Shown here in pieces: positions 3,211 through 7,003 of a stretch of 7,290 nt of DNA; position 1 is the stretch's first letter; each line of letters starts with the position of its first letter. The stretch comes from Nitrospinota bacterium (GTDB lineage Bacteria > Nitrospinota > Nitrospinia > JACRGO01), in NCBI GenBank assembly GCA_016212295.1, contig JACRGO010000069.1, positions 1-7,290 of the forward strand, in the 5' to 3' direction. The translations under genes were made by a program, and so were the position numbers. The notes beneath the pieces were generated by a model. The model was given only the letters and a program-made list of their open reading frames with translations, did no database searches and was not told where the DNA came from.

Positions 3211-3429
3211 TCAAATGAAGATATTGACCTTATTGCCCATCTGGAGGTTTGCTCGATTTACCTGGCCGGTAATCATTTCGGATATCTTTCTGCCATGGTC
3301 CAGCGTCTCTCCAGGCCCTCCAAAGCTCCCGTTGTTGTTTTTGTCAAGGGGATTTGGAGTGGCCGAATTTATCTTCCGGATATTTTCATGGCCCGCAGGC
3401 GCCGCTGCCGGGGATACGGCTGAGCTCAT
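3211..3429 (-). CDS. small unrecognised protein with Asp/Asn-rich loop
   Basis: The predicted product has 72 residues and no signal peptide or membrane segment. The N-terminus is rich in Ser, Ala and Pro (SSAVSPAAAPAG). Residues 28-36 (LDKNNNGSF) resemble the first half of an EF-hand calcium loop, but the expected acidic residue at loop position 12 is shifted to 13 (Glu41), so calcium binding is only a thought. The C-terminal half looks like a short amphipathic helix ending NKVNIFI. An upstream start at 3471 is possible, but its first codons lie in a repeat element and it has no ribosome site. The ATG at 3429 has GGAAAGGA about 10 bases upstream and is preferred. It lies on the same strand as, and downstream of, the 3681-4118 gene, behind a terminator, so it is probably transcribed separately. 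I do not recognise the family. Confidence 0.6.
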   Translation of the reverse strand: MSSAVSPAAAPAGHENIRKINSATPNPLDKNNNGSFGGPGETLDHGRKISEMITGQVNRANLQMGNKVNIFI

Positions 3430-3459: not shown

Positions 3460-3611
3460 AAAGCGCGGCATGTCCGCAACAAAATAAATTTCGATGGATT
3501 CAAACGTTCGACGATATTATTACATTCAGAAATTTACATTTTCCGCTTTTAATAAAACCGGCGTTGAATGCTTCAAGAGAAATTTATTTTGATTGCGGCC
3601 ATGCGCGCTCC
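3460..3611. repeat. about 150-bp imperfect inverted-repeat element, MITE-like, made of two GCGGC-repeat copies
   Basis: The left arm (3460-3506), read on the minus strand, aligns with the right arm (3562-3611), read on the plus strand. Shared blocks in order are CGTT(T)GAAT, then GAAATTTATTTTG, TTGCGG, CATG and CGCGCT, with small gaps. The arms enclose about 55 bp of AT-rich sequence. Each arm ends in the same GCGGC core as the 33-bp copies at 2048 and 3112, so this is a facing pair of the same family. No transposase is present. It is comparable in layout to paired REP/BIME units or a small non-autonomous element; which one is undecided. Confidence 0.65.
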
Positions 3612-3680: not shown

Positions 3681-4118
3681 TCAGGACTGGGTATTCACGT
3701 TTGTTCCTTTTCCGATTTCAACGGAATTCGCCGCTTTTCCGGTATCAATGGGATTTGCCATGCCGCCGCCGGGATCTAACGGCTGGCTGTGGGCCTGGAG
3801 CATGGCGGCCTGTCCGGCCATGTCCTTGGCGGTGCCTCTTTGGAGATTCCCCACGGTTTTCTCCATACTCGCCTGCAACTGCTGAGCCCTCTCGGCGCCT
3901 GTTGCGGCCATTGTCTTTCCCTTTTCATTGAGCGAGCTGGAAATCCGCTCTCCTTCCTTAGGAACGGCGTCAAAGGCGGCCTTTGTTTCGTTAATCCTGC
4001 TGATAGTGGCGTTTAAAGTCCGCTGGTCCAGCATATTTTTCAGACTGCTGGCCGCGGCGGACGAGCCGAATCTGTTCCCGACCTGTGGACCGGTAGGAAA
4101 AGGGGACACCTTAGGCAT
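3681..4118 (-). CDS. unknown small helical protein, paralogue A of a divergent pair
   Basis: The 145-residue product is soluble, mostly helical by composition, and lacks a signal peptide, Cys and membrane segments. It starts MPKVSPFPTGPQVGNR. It aligns without gaps to the product of 4389-4793 over residues 1-113, with 47 identities by hand count (about 42%); strong blocks are the N-terminus, DQ..LNA, RI...KA, KE..RI, and TxKDM with SQP at 96-113. The C-terminus after the GGG at 117-119 is low-complexity and carries a tandem motif: IDTGKAAN (124-131) then VEIGKGTN (133-140), present once in the paralogue. The start is fixed by AAGGAGG at 4132-4126, seven bases before the ATG at 4118; an ATG two codons earlier is only one base from it. 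I do not recognise the family. The PTGP/GNR start could be a handle for export or a partner, but that is speculation. Confidence 0.85.
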   Translation of the reverse strand: MPKVSPFPTGPQVGNRFGSSAAASSLKNMLDQRTLNATISRINETKAAFDAVPKEGERISSSLNEKGKTMAATGAERAQQLQASMEKTVGNLQRGTAKDMAGQAAMLQAHSQPLDPGGGMANPIDTGKAANSVEIGKGTNVNTQS

Positions 4119-4125
4119 AAACATC

Positions 4126-4132
4126 CCTCCTT
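4126..4132 (-). promoter_or_regulatory. ribosome binding site deciding the start of paralogue A
   Basis: The sequence AAGGAGG on the minus strand is seven bases upstream of the ATG at 4118 and one base from the ATG at 4124. Only the downstream ATG has workable spacing, and it also matches the N-terminus of the other paralogue. Confidence 0.75.
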
Positions 4133-4230
4133 GAAAAATGTCAATAAAAATTTTAAACTTTTCCTTGATGTACTTATCGGCGCTTTTATTTAAAACTTTA
4201 GGGGGAAATCATTTTTTTTAAATCAGGGAA

Positions 4231-4244
4231 GAAAACCGGTTTTC
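4231..4244. promoter_or_regulatory. perfect 14-bp palindrome, candidate operator between divergent paralogues
   Basis: GAAAACCGGTTTTC is perfectly self-complementary and lies close to the middle of the 270-bp divergent spacer, 112 bp from one start codon and 144 bp from the other. Its dyad symmetry suits a dimeric repressor or activator. It has no loop, which argues against a transcript hairpin. No regulator gene is in the window. Confidence 0.4.
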
Positions 4245-4319
4245 AGCGAATGCTCTCTAATTGGGGCGCCGGTCTTTTTCAAGAACATGGCTTAGCGAAT
4301 TAATTAATGAAAAACAAGG

Positions 4320-4348
4320 TTGAATATCGCGGCCTCTGGAACTATATT
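4320..4348 (+). promoter_or_regulatory. sigma-70-type promoter of paralogue B
   Basis: TTGAAT (4320-4325) and TATATT (4343-4348) are separated by exactly 17 bp and match the consensus at four and five of six positions. Transcription would start near 4355, leaving a leader of about 35 bases that includes AAGGA eight bases before the ATG at 4389. This is the best promoter match in the window. Confidence 0.55.
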
Positions 4349-4388
4349 AATTTTGTAATGCAAAGGGAATTTTTAAAAGGATACTACC

Positions 4389-4793
4389 ATGCCAAAAGTC
4401 TCAGGTGTTCCAACCGGCCCTTTCATGGGCAACAGGCTTGCCACTGATGTGGCGGCAAAGGGAGTGGAAACCATAGGTGATCAGCAGGTTTTGAACGCCG
4501 CAGTTGAGAGGATAGGCAAAATCAAGGCCTCGTATGACATGGTCTTAAAGGAATCCAACCGCATAGGAGAATCCATACATGGGAGGGCGGACGTCCTTAA
4601 GAAGAAGGGGACGGAAGACGCGGACAGGCTTAGAAGCATTCTGGACAAAACCTTTCAGGATGTCCAGCAAAGCACTTCAAAGGACATGGGAATGAAGACC
4701 GCTCTTATCCAAGCCACCAGCCAGCCGGGTTCCCAGGGGGGAGGCAGCGCCGTTGAAACCGGTAAAGGCAATAATATAAGCGTGAAGGCATGA
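4389..4793 (+). CDS. unknown small helical protein, paralogue B of a divergent pair
   Basis: The 134-residue product starts MPKVSGVPTGPFMGNR and is the divergently transcribed paralogue of 3681-4118 (about 42% identical over 113 ungapped positions). It has no signal peptide, Cys or membrane segment. Residues 30-110 are charged and heptad-like, consistent with long helices (RIGKIKASYD, DADRLRSILDKTFQDVQQ), followed by SQP, a Gly-rich stretch and a basic tail VETGKGNN..SVKA. B is more basic than A in the middle, with KKKG at 71-74 where A has AATG, so the two may have distinct roles or form a heteromer. The ATG has AAGGA eight bases upstream. It ends 55 bp from the convergent mutase gene, with a CTTTAG-type repeat in between. 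Size and helix-only character recall small secreted or structural subunits, but no family is recognised. Confidence 0.87.
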   Translation: MPKVSGVPTGPFMGNRLATDVAAKGVETIGDQQVLNAAVERIGKIKASYDMVLKESNRIGESIHGRADVLKKKGTEDADRLRSILDKTFQDVQQSTSKDMGMKTALIQATSQPGSQGGGSAVETGKGNNISVKA

Positions 4794-4847: not shown

Positions 4848-6221
4848 TCAGGCCTTTTCAACTAAATATTTTTGTGAAGGGTAAGACGCCAACTTTTCAA
4901 AAAATATTTTTTTTATCTCCTCCAGCCTCTCCACGCTTCCGGCCTCGAAGCGAAACACCAGGACAGGCTGCGTGTTGGAGGCGCGGATGAGTCCCCATCC
5001 GTCCCCGAAATCCACCCGCGCCCCGTCTATGTCAACCACTTCGTGCCTCTCCTTGAACCAGGCCGTGATGTCCTTGACCAGGTCGAATTTGACGTCGTCC
5101 GGGCAATCCACCCGTATCTCAGGGGTGTTATAAACTTTTGGCACTCCGTCGAGAAATCGGGAAACCTTCTTGTCCGTTTCGGACATGATCCTTAAAAAAC
5201 GCGCGGTGGCGAAGGTGGCGTCGTCGAACCCGAAATAATCTTCCTTGAAAAAAATATGGGCGCTCATCTCGCCAGCCAATTCGGCCTTTTCCCTGGAAAG
5301 GCGCGCCTTGATCAGGGAGTGGCCAGTGGGGTTTATGATGGGACGCCCGCCGTGCTTGCGGACGTATTCCTCAAGGTTCCTGGTGCATTTGACGTCATAG
5401 ATGATTCCCGCCCCTGGTTTCCGCGTCAGGATGTCCCTGGCGAAGATCATCAGCAACTGGTCTCCGAACAGAATATTTCCCTCCTCGTCCACTACGCCGA
5501 TCCGGTCCGCGTCGCCGTCATACGCAAAACCCGCCTCTGCCCCGGTTTCCTTGACCTTGGCGATGAGGTTTTTCAGATTTTCCGGGACCGTGGGGTCGGG
5601 GTGGTGATTGGGAAAGGTCCCGTCCAGCTCGCAAAAAAGTTCAATCACTTCGCATCCCAATTCCCGCATCAAGCGCGGGGTGAGTATGGCGGCGCAACCG
5701 TTTCCAGCGTCAAGGACCACTCTCGGTTTTCTCTTCAGGCGGATCTTGCCCTTCACCATTGATATATAATCTTCCTTGACGTCGACTTCCTCAATAGTCC
5801 CATTCCCTTTCTCGTAGTCTCCCTTTTCTATCATTGCCGCTATGTCCTGAATCCCATGGCCGTGTATGGAATCGGTCCCCAGATTCAGCTTGAAGCCGTT
5901 GAATTCCGGGGGATTGTGGGAGCCGGTGATCATGGCCCCGCCGTCAACATGGAGATGGTGAATGGAAAAATACAGCAAGGGGGTGGGGACTAGTCCTATG
6001 TCCACTACATCCACTCCAGTTGAGTTGATTCCTTTAGCCAGGGATTGAAAAAGGCCTGGACTGGAAGGCCTGGCATCGTATCCAACTGCGGCCCTCTTGC
6101 CCTTGTTTCTTCGGATGATTGTGCCGAAGGCCCTGCCGATGCTTTCCACTATTTGGGGCGGAAAATCCTTGTCCACAACGCCGCGGATGTCGTATTCCCT
6201 GAATATCTGCTTATTTATCAT
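4848..6221 (-). CDS. manB: phosphomannomutase/phosphoglucomutase (AlgC/ManB family)
   Basis: This is an alpha-D-phosphohexomutase that interconverts mannose-6-P/mannose-1-P and glucose-6-P/glucose-1-P through a phosphoserine and a bis-phosphate intermediate. It feeds nucleotide-sugar synthesis for polysaccharide or LPS. The 457-residue length fits the Pseudomonas AlgC type (about 463). All four domain signatures are present in order: TGSHNPP at 99-105 with phospho-Ser101, the Mg2+ loop DGDADR at 235-240, the sugar-specificity loop GEMSAHIFF at 317-325 (Glu318, Ser320, His322), and the phosphate loop RASNTQP at 413-419. The GEMS loop and overall length favour the dual-specificity PMM/PGM over phosphoglucosamine mutase. 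The ATG overlaps the upstream stop codon as ATGA, with AAGGG seven bases before it, so it is probably translationally coupled to the cytochrome gene. The symbol is by family; algC would be equally apt. Confidence 0.95.
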   Translation of the reverse strand: MINKQIFREYDIRGVVDKDFPPQIVESIGRAFGTIIRRNKGKRAAVGYDARPSSPGLFQSLAKGINSTGVDVVDIGLVPTPLLYFSIHHLHVDGGAMITGSHNPPEFNGFKLNLGTDSIHGHGIQDIAAMIEKGDYEKGNGTIEEVDVKEDYISMVKGKIRLKRKPRVVLDAGNGCAAILTPRLMRELGCEVIELFCELDGTFPNHHPDPTVPENLKNLIAKVKETGAEAGFAYDGDADRIGVVDEEGNILFGDQLLMIFARDILTRKPGAGIIYDVKCTRNLEEYVRKHGGRPIINPTGHSLIKARLSREKAELAGEMSAHIFFKEDYFGFDDATFATARFLRIMSETDKKVSRFLDGVPKVYNTPEIRVDCPDDVKFDLVKDITAWFKERHEVVDIDGARVDFGDGWGLIRASNTQPVLVFRFEAGSVERLEEIKKIFFEKLASYPSQKYLVEKA

Positions 6222-6922
6222 TTTAAACCCTTTAAATAGTTGATTATGGCGGCCCGATCCACAGGTTCTGGGATTTTAGTGACCATTTTGGACTTAGGCA
6301 CGACATTTTTGGAGTCTGTTATCCATGCATCAAGGTTTTTTACGTCCCAGATTTTTCCTTGAAATGCCTGGAGGAAGGCGTTCGTGTATTGAAAATCCTT
6401 GGATTTGCCTGCTTCTGACCCGTAAATTCCGAATAAGTTAGGCCCGACCCTGTTCATGCCGCCCTGATTAAAGGTGTGGCATACCTCGCACTTACTCAGC
6501 ACAGCGGGCTTTTCCACAATTGCCGGCGGAGCGGCCGTGGTTGAAACCACCGGCTCAGGTTCCGGCGCTTCATCGGCTGGAGGAGGAGGCGGAATTTTTT
6601 CCTGGGTTTCAGGAGGCGGAAAGCCGTCCTGGGACTCCGGGGCGTTGAAAATTCCTCCTTCTTCGGGTTCAATGGACTCATGAGACTCCTGTGCCGTTCC
6701 CTCTCCAGCCGGTTTCTGTCCCGGTACTTCCGGAGCGGCTGTTTCCTTGGGAATTGCGGCCGCTTCTTGAGGGACAGCGCCAGGCGCCTTATCCATGGCC
6801 TTCGACGCCGCTATTTTATCGCCTTGTTTTTCCGCCTGGACAACGGTTTCCACGGATTTTTCCTCTCCGCACGCCACGGCAAAAAAACAAACAAGCAGTA
6901 AAAGCGAAAAAATTATTTTCAT
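6218..6922 (-). CDS. lipoprotein-anchored monohaem cytochrome c
   Basis: The 234-residue product has a lipoprotein signal MKIIFSLLLLVCFFAVAC with lipidated Cys18. A long, probably disordered linker (about 19-138) rich in Glu, Pro and Ala follows, with runs such as IPPPPP at 110-115. The C-terminal class-I cytochrome c domain (about 139-234) has the haem site CEVCH (145-149), the GPNLFGIYG motif (160-168), the likely axial Met213 in PKSKM, and the closing helix DRAAIINYLKG. It should act in the periplasm, tethered to the membrane, as an electron shuttle. The longer reading frame from 6982 is rejected: AAGGAGG at 6934-6928 lies five bases before the ATG at 6922, and only this start puts the signal at the N-terminus. 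The stop overlaps the mutase start. Why a cytochrome is coupled to a sugar mutase is unclear; this could be a local accident. Confidence 0.92.
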   Translation of the reverse strand: MKIIFSLLLLVCFFAVACGEEKSVETVVQAEKQGDKIAASKAMDKAPGAVPQEAAAIPKETAAPEVPGQKPAGEGTAQESHESIEPEEGGIFNAPESQDGFPPPETQEKIPPPPPADEAPEPEPVVSTTAAPPAIVEKPAVLSKCEVCHTFNQGGMNRVGPNLFGIYGSEAGKSKDFQYTNAFLQAFQGKIWDVKNLDAWITDSKNVVPKSKMVTKIPEPVDRAAIINYLKGLK

Positions 6923-6927
6923 ACAGG

Positions 6928-6934
6928 CCTCCTT
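6928..6934 (-). promoter_or_regulatory. ribosome binding site deciding the cytochrome start
   Basis: AAGGAGG on the minus strand is five bases before the ATG at 6922. It selects the lipoprotein start over the in-frame ATG at 6982. Confidence 0.8.
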
Positions 6935-7003
6935 CAGGCAAAGGATTAGTTTAACTGGCGCTTTTGATAAAGTCCAGGTCATTCAATGCTCCGTACTACA
7001 AAC

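Follow-up and report, generated by a model that had tools for sequence, protein, structure and literature searches.

Among the systems described so far, three are the closest to the proteins examined here. YjfB (PF14070, "putative motility protein") is conserved together with sigma-28 over many phyla, and we know of no function described for it. The Fed proteins of Campylobacter (flagellar co-expressed determinants) are small, sigma-28-dependent, dispensable for the core flagellum and secreted by flagellar export, and promoters of the FliA (sigma-28) type are active after the completion of the hook-basal body. FlgV is a membrane protein at the basal body, and its cytoplasmic tail carries a conserved peptide at the C-terminus that was suggested to tether factors to the flagellum; in terms of co-conservation, FlgV stands where the flhF-flhG module meets the sigma-28/FapA/YjfB module, and YjfB tends to be conserved together with sigma-28 and FlgV across bacteria (PMC11607428).

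In the window (i.e., the whole stretch of 7,290 nucleotides analysed), two divergent genes, A and B, encode members of a protein family that resembles YjfB in having an octapeptide in the same register at the C-terminus, sigma-28 sites upstream, small size and solubility. YjfB, nonetheless, has a KTA.DVQKQEG core and a length of about 60 aa, whereas the family members are 128-145 aa long and do not have this core. Indeed, none of the seven family members matched PF14070 (cut-off, 27 bits) at E <= 5, and a comparison of the full-length family with the YjfB profile by hhalign was not significant (P 0.09), yielding no more than an insignificant K..xD...QEG alignment. Full homology to YjfB was thus tested for and not found, and the family is therefore not filed under PF14070; it has a signal in common with the YjfB group and probably works in the same setting. 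In FlgV (BB0268 type 1), which is encoded in a flagellar operon, the same C-terminal peptide was found in 10 Nitrospinia genomes, but FlgV is a basal-body protein with two transmembrane helices and an Arg residue in the second, whereas A and B have neither. In the genus of the window, furthermore, YjfB was not found and the FlgV-like protein has no tail; a PF14070 match on contig C128 of the window's genome (E 0.2) was rejected, as no YjfB-like ORF was present there. Export, as known for the Fed proteins, might apply to the family by analogy.

A divergent gene pair and its copies in one genus

The earlier note on this DNA described two back-to-back genes for paralogous proteins, and both ORFs are indeed present (Table 1). 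The first 113 residues match without gaps at 47 identities (41.6%), close to the 42% given before, and the earlier description of the common start MPKVS..PTGP..GNR and of the end block holds as well; in BLASTP, the two proteins aligned at 107 bits (E = 1e-35, 39% over 145 columns). Both are polar throughout with no membrane segment and, as noticed before, contain no Cys, to which the absence of Trp can be added. Either a helical bundle or a coiled coil had been proposed. Given seven sequences, AlphaFold predicted, at low confidence (pLDDT 61), one long helix that spans residues 16-110 and is flanked by disordered ends; this is compatible with a coiled coil, and the model did not show a bundle. 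A marked divergence of charge in the middle region turned out to be weak, residues 60-100 having 8 basic and 8 acidic residues in A and 6 and 4, respectively, in B.

Table 1. Positions of the features in the window and of the further copies in the window's genome
Feature	Position	Strand	Description
Gene B	3681..4118	minus (start 4118, stop 3681)	145-aa helical paralogue, C-terminus ...VEIGKGTNVNTQS; profile E 7e-56
Gene A	4389..4793	plus	134-aa helical paralogue, C-terminus ...VETGKGNNISVKA; profile E 2e-56
Octapeptide of B	3684..3707	minus	GTNVNTQS
Octapeptide of A	4767..4790	plus	GNNISVKA
Sigma-28 (FliA)-type promoter of B	4174..4200	minus	TAAAGTTT-N11-GCCGATAA; 12/12 scored consensus positions
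Sigma-70-like promoter of A	4320..4348	plus	TTGAAT-N17-TATATT; 1% of shuffles
Third small gene	3211..3429	minus	72 aa, similar tail ...MGNKVNIFI
Palindrome-ended repeat	3461-3610		between B and the third small gene
Cytochrome c gene	6221-6982	minus	lipoprotein-like
Copy C	L006:5053-5466		third intact copy in the window's genome (G000)
Copy H	L008:1-330 + L026:1-300		fourth copy, split between contigs C14 and C31 of G000

For this genus, the analysis covered two fragmented metagenome assemblies, one from each of two species, and four copies were found per genome, one of them (H) broken by an insertion sequence. In addition to the copies of Table 1 in the window's genome (G000; 3.74 Mb, 237 contigs), the sister species, Nitrospinia bacterium OFTM173 (G001), has copies D and E and a tandem pair, F-G. 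These further copies in the genus (third, tandem and others) show that A and B represent a real protein family. As for copy H, both contig ends carry the 10 bases CCAATACAGC beside matching inverted ends (CAGGGTGAATTTGTTC / CACGGTAAATTTGTTC), and we infer that C14 and C31 hold the halves of a single gene, into which an insertion sequence has jumped and thereby duplicated 10 bp of the target; this copy is also devoid of about 30 residues ahead of the tail, the tail itself being kept.

When related genomes were searched, further copies were found solely in one genus among 77 Nitrospinota genomes, none being found in the other genera. A search of genome contigs with two peptide patterns hit only the sister species, OFTM173, and no relatives were found among viral contigs and phage records. 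Nothing convincing was found in Pfam, NCBIfam, PHROGs and PDB sequences, so that the description of the family as unrecognised holds, and Foldseek with the low-confidence helix model gave no match in PDB. The ideas of an R-body, a toxin-antitoxin system and a secretion effector received no support. Judged from sequence, the family is a new one of small helical proteins and is genus-specific within Nitrospinia.

Promoters and flagellar neighbours

The region between A and B had been regarded as a shared regulatory spacer; it contains two separate promoter-like sites of different type (Table 1). The sigma-28 site of B was reached in none of 300 shuffles and is the sole site with a perfect core across G000, and the sigma-70-like form in front of A recurs before three more copies. 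A sigma-28-like site lies 82-94 bp ahead of the start codon in copies B, D, F, and H (perfect in B; near-perfect, at 89-94 bp, in D, F, and H), none of which has a sigma-70-like site. In copies A, C, E, and G, by contrast, TTGAnn-N-TATATT is located 65-74 bp ahead of the start codon, and a sigma-28 site is absent; each of these sites was found in 0-2.3% of dinucleotide shuffles. Each genome is thereby equipped with two copies of the sigma-28-like and two of the sigma-70-like class, which never overlap, and the tree of the copies shows no grouping by promoter kind. In both genomes, fliA was found above the cut-off, in an operon of the order flhG, gene for a protein with two transmembrane helices, and fliA, and B, D, F, and H, not A, C, E, and G, are hence the copies having a FliA-type promoter in a fliA-bearing genome. 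There are five perfect sigma-28 cores in G001, three of which precede D, F, and an operon led by flaG, and two of which are located among unrelated genes. Since a genome scan for the sigma-28 pattern with one mismatch allowed was not above the control, only sites with a perfect core or at the right distance were used.

The split of the copies between sigma-70 and sigma-28 suggests an early and a late form, as predicted from the promoters. Of the two interpretations offered in the earlier note, alternately expressed forms are supported at the level of promoter sequence (sigma-28 for B, sigma-70-like for A, and the 2+2 split in both species), and two partners of one complex are not suggested because the sister species has its copies scattered or arranged in tandem. 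The observation in that note is thus confirmed and its interpretation partly supported, to which the flagellar link, a YjfB-type C-terminal octapeptide and a third tailed gene in the window are added here.

With regard to neighbours, copy E and a flagellin gene form a divergent pair in G001, and both the tandem pair F-G in G001 and the broken copy H in G000 are convergent with fliS-fliD; no flagellar genes were found beside copies A, B, and C. That the family would belong to the flagellar regulon is well supported. Most Nitrospinia have flagellin and not the family, and flagella per se were hence rejected as an explanation of its distribution. Given this absence from other flagellated Nitrospinia, the family is not considered to be a core flagellar part.

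The C-terminal octapeptide and its possible meaning

The last eight residues in the family follow the consensus G-x-N-[IVL]-[DNS]-x-x-A, and the ending typical of YjfB, G-x-N-[IV]-[DN]-x-x-A/V, was found in the family. Indeed, PF14070 proteins in other genera of Nitrospinia end with TGNNIDVTA, PGRNIDVSA, PGQQVDVTA, and TGQNIDIQA, and an annotated YjfB of Ewingella ends with GRNINIAV; the register of the YjfB tails from the stop codon is identical to that of A and B. PF14070 also has a match in Bacillus subtilis. Of the 12 YjfB genes in Nitrospinia, 9 have a sigma-28-like site that agrees at 10 or more of the 12 positions and lies no further than 200 bp away. In G001, the product of the small gene behind flaG also resembles the family in its ending, LETEKGGKVNFFA, and a search with the tail revealed more small and mutually unrelated proteins on contigs C108, C221, C237, C76, and C138 of G000. 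The tailed protein on C76 has an orthologue on C499 of G001, and the tail is kept though the rest differs.

The tail motif was noticed by inspection and statistically tested only afterwards, when a matrix made from YjfB tails alone separated the eight family tails from 502 ends of long ORFs (Mann-Whitney P = 6e-7). A second matrix, for which the training tails came only from YjfB and FlgV in other genera, was applied to 2783 ORFs; A, the proteins on C237, C108, and C221, G, and B rank just below the training proteins and their like and above nearly all other ORFs. The tails of C, D, F, and G have modest scores. In a scan of the 77 genomes for G-x-N-[hydrophobic]-[DN]-x-x-A-stop, 39 matches were obtained versus 20 for the reversed pattern, and no fewer than 21 of these 39 belong to FlgV-like proteins (10), YjfB (8), the family (copy F is one), or other tailed small proteins; a further tail pattern gave 10 matches versus 5 for its reversed control. 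The 10 FlgV-like matches are proteins with two transmembrane helices that end with KG[IVTA]NLD[QR]TA and are encoded between flhG and fliA, the place of FlgV, in all 10 genomes. A tailed protein directly after flaG was found in three genomes of two families, with 67 aa in the two genomes of the other family. At the sequence level, it is one octapeptide that ends FlgV, YjfB, post-flaG proteins, and the family in Nitrospinota.

We propose, with about even confidence for and against, that A and B are genus-specific accessory proteins of the flagellar regulon, namely helical rods docking on a flagellar partner via the C-terminal tail. Each protein would consist of a long helix, probably a coiled coil, between a disordered start and a disordered end, the latter carrying the YjfB-type octapeptide. 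The A-type copies would be made from housekeeping promoters and the B-type copies from sigma-28 promoters, and a basal level of the A-type might be joined or replaced by the B-type when late flagellar genes switch on. By its tail, the protein may dock on a flagellar component in the cytosol, one that is also reached by the FlgV tail at the basal body in related genera. In our reading, a common ligand is offered to one kind of partner by YjfB, the family, and the other tailed proteins. Tailed small proteins are numerous in the window's genus, and we conjecture that they replaced tailed FlgV and YjfB in their role. Since the FlgV-like protein of this genus is untailed and no YjfB was found there, the idea of a shared receptor rests on other genera. 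More tentatively, and with doubt prevailing, the octapeptide might be a general docking code at flagellar C-termini; FlgV, YjfB, flaG-linked small proteins, and the family would share one receptor at the flagellar base, where soluble proteins made under sigma-28 would compete with or replace the earlier ones and thereby signal the stage. One short tail, common to FlgV, YjfB, and otherwise unrelated small late-flagellar proteins including the family, also offers a route to very small flagellar proteins that are missed in profile searches.

Alternatively, the flagellar type III apparatus could export the proteins, which would then have their function in the filament or outside the cell. The analogue would be the Fed/Cia proteins of Campylobacter, which depend on sigma-28 and are secreted by the flagellum, and the tail would be a chaperone-binding or export element. 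The control by sigma-28, the neighbouring flagellin, fliD, and fliS, and proteins without Cys that have a polar disordered N-terminus and a long helix would all be in line with export, but the sigma-28 site is absent from half of the copies, and FlgV, which ends with the same octapeptide in related genera, bears it on a cytoplasmic tail (PMC11607428) and is no export substrate. Because FlgV is not exported, a docking ligand is a more likely role for the tail than an export signal, and we regard export as unlikely.

We hold it improbable, furthermore, that the octapeptide is a product of convergence, in which short disordered ends rich in Gly and Asn would be alike by chance or composition and the family would be an unrelated small protein regulated by sigma-28. 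Such convergence would be consistent with the definition of the motif after inspection, with the modest scores of some tails, and with the insignificant profile comparison to YjfB, but the position of the tail is fixed at the stop codon and the excess of both scans over the reversed controls consists of flagellar and tailed small genes. The tail has also outlasted the divergence between the C76 and C499 orthologues and the loss of residues ahead of it in copy H. A phasin-like amphipathic helical coat of granules or surfaces with no special flagellar role, to which the long predicted helix and matches to TIGR01985 (phasin_2; best E 0.0026, short of the curated cut-off) in two of the seven members would point, is very improbable, given that other coiled-coil models are equally weak and that the sigma-28 sites, the flagellar neighbours, and the YjfB-type tail are left unexplained; docking via the tail is the reading that we prefer.

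Other tailed genes and features of the window

The third small gene of the window has no Pfam match, and its product is homologous to the tailed protein on C237 (...SGKGINVDAFA) with a Smith-Waterman score of 97, which was reached in none of 500 shuffles; this relation was missed by BLASTP. In G001, a sigma-28 site, flaG, and then the 104-aa disordered protein ending with LETEKGGKVNFFA were found in this order (L044:505-1351). In the other family, the order of flaG and the gene for the tailed protein is seen at two loci (L231 and L232), followed at L231 by a chemoreceptor gene. We also noticed two adjacent tailed proteins at one locus (L234, on contig C26 of G043), where the YjfB gene is followed by the gene for a different protein of 63 aa with the tail GNNVDVTA. 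Two orthologous tailed proteins of 66 aa (L223, KGSKLNVFA; L230, KGSKVNLFA) have strongly diverged from the start to the tail, and their genes adjoin the same outer-membrane-like gene in both species. A tailed protein of 91 aa, with a partial sigma-28 site, is encoded directly upstream of a gene for a product with a metalloprotease-like VSAHESRHA motif (L135:836-1111).

The repeat located between B and the third small gene has palindromic ends, CATGnCCGCAAnnAAAATAAATTTC, with the facing end about 111 bp away. These ends have 151 matches in G000 versus none for the control, and the repeat looks like a high-copy miniature inverted-repeat element, another copy of which lies behind the broken gene H (L026:300-360). 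Further along the window, the lipoprotein-like cytochrome c has a long linker rich in Pro and Glu ahead of its haem domain.
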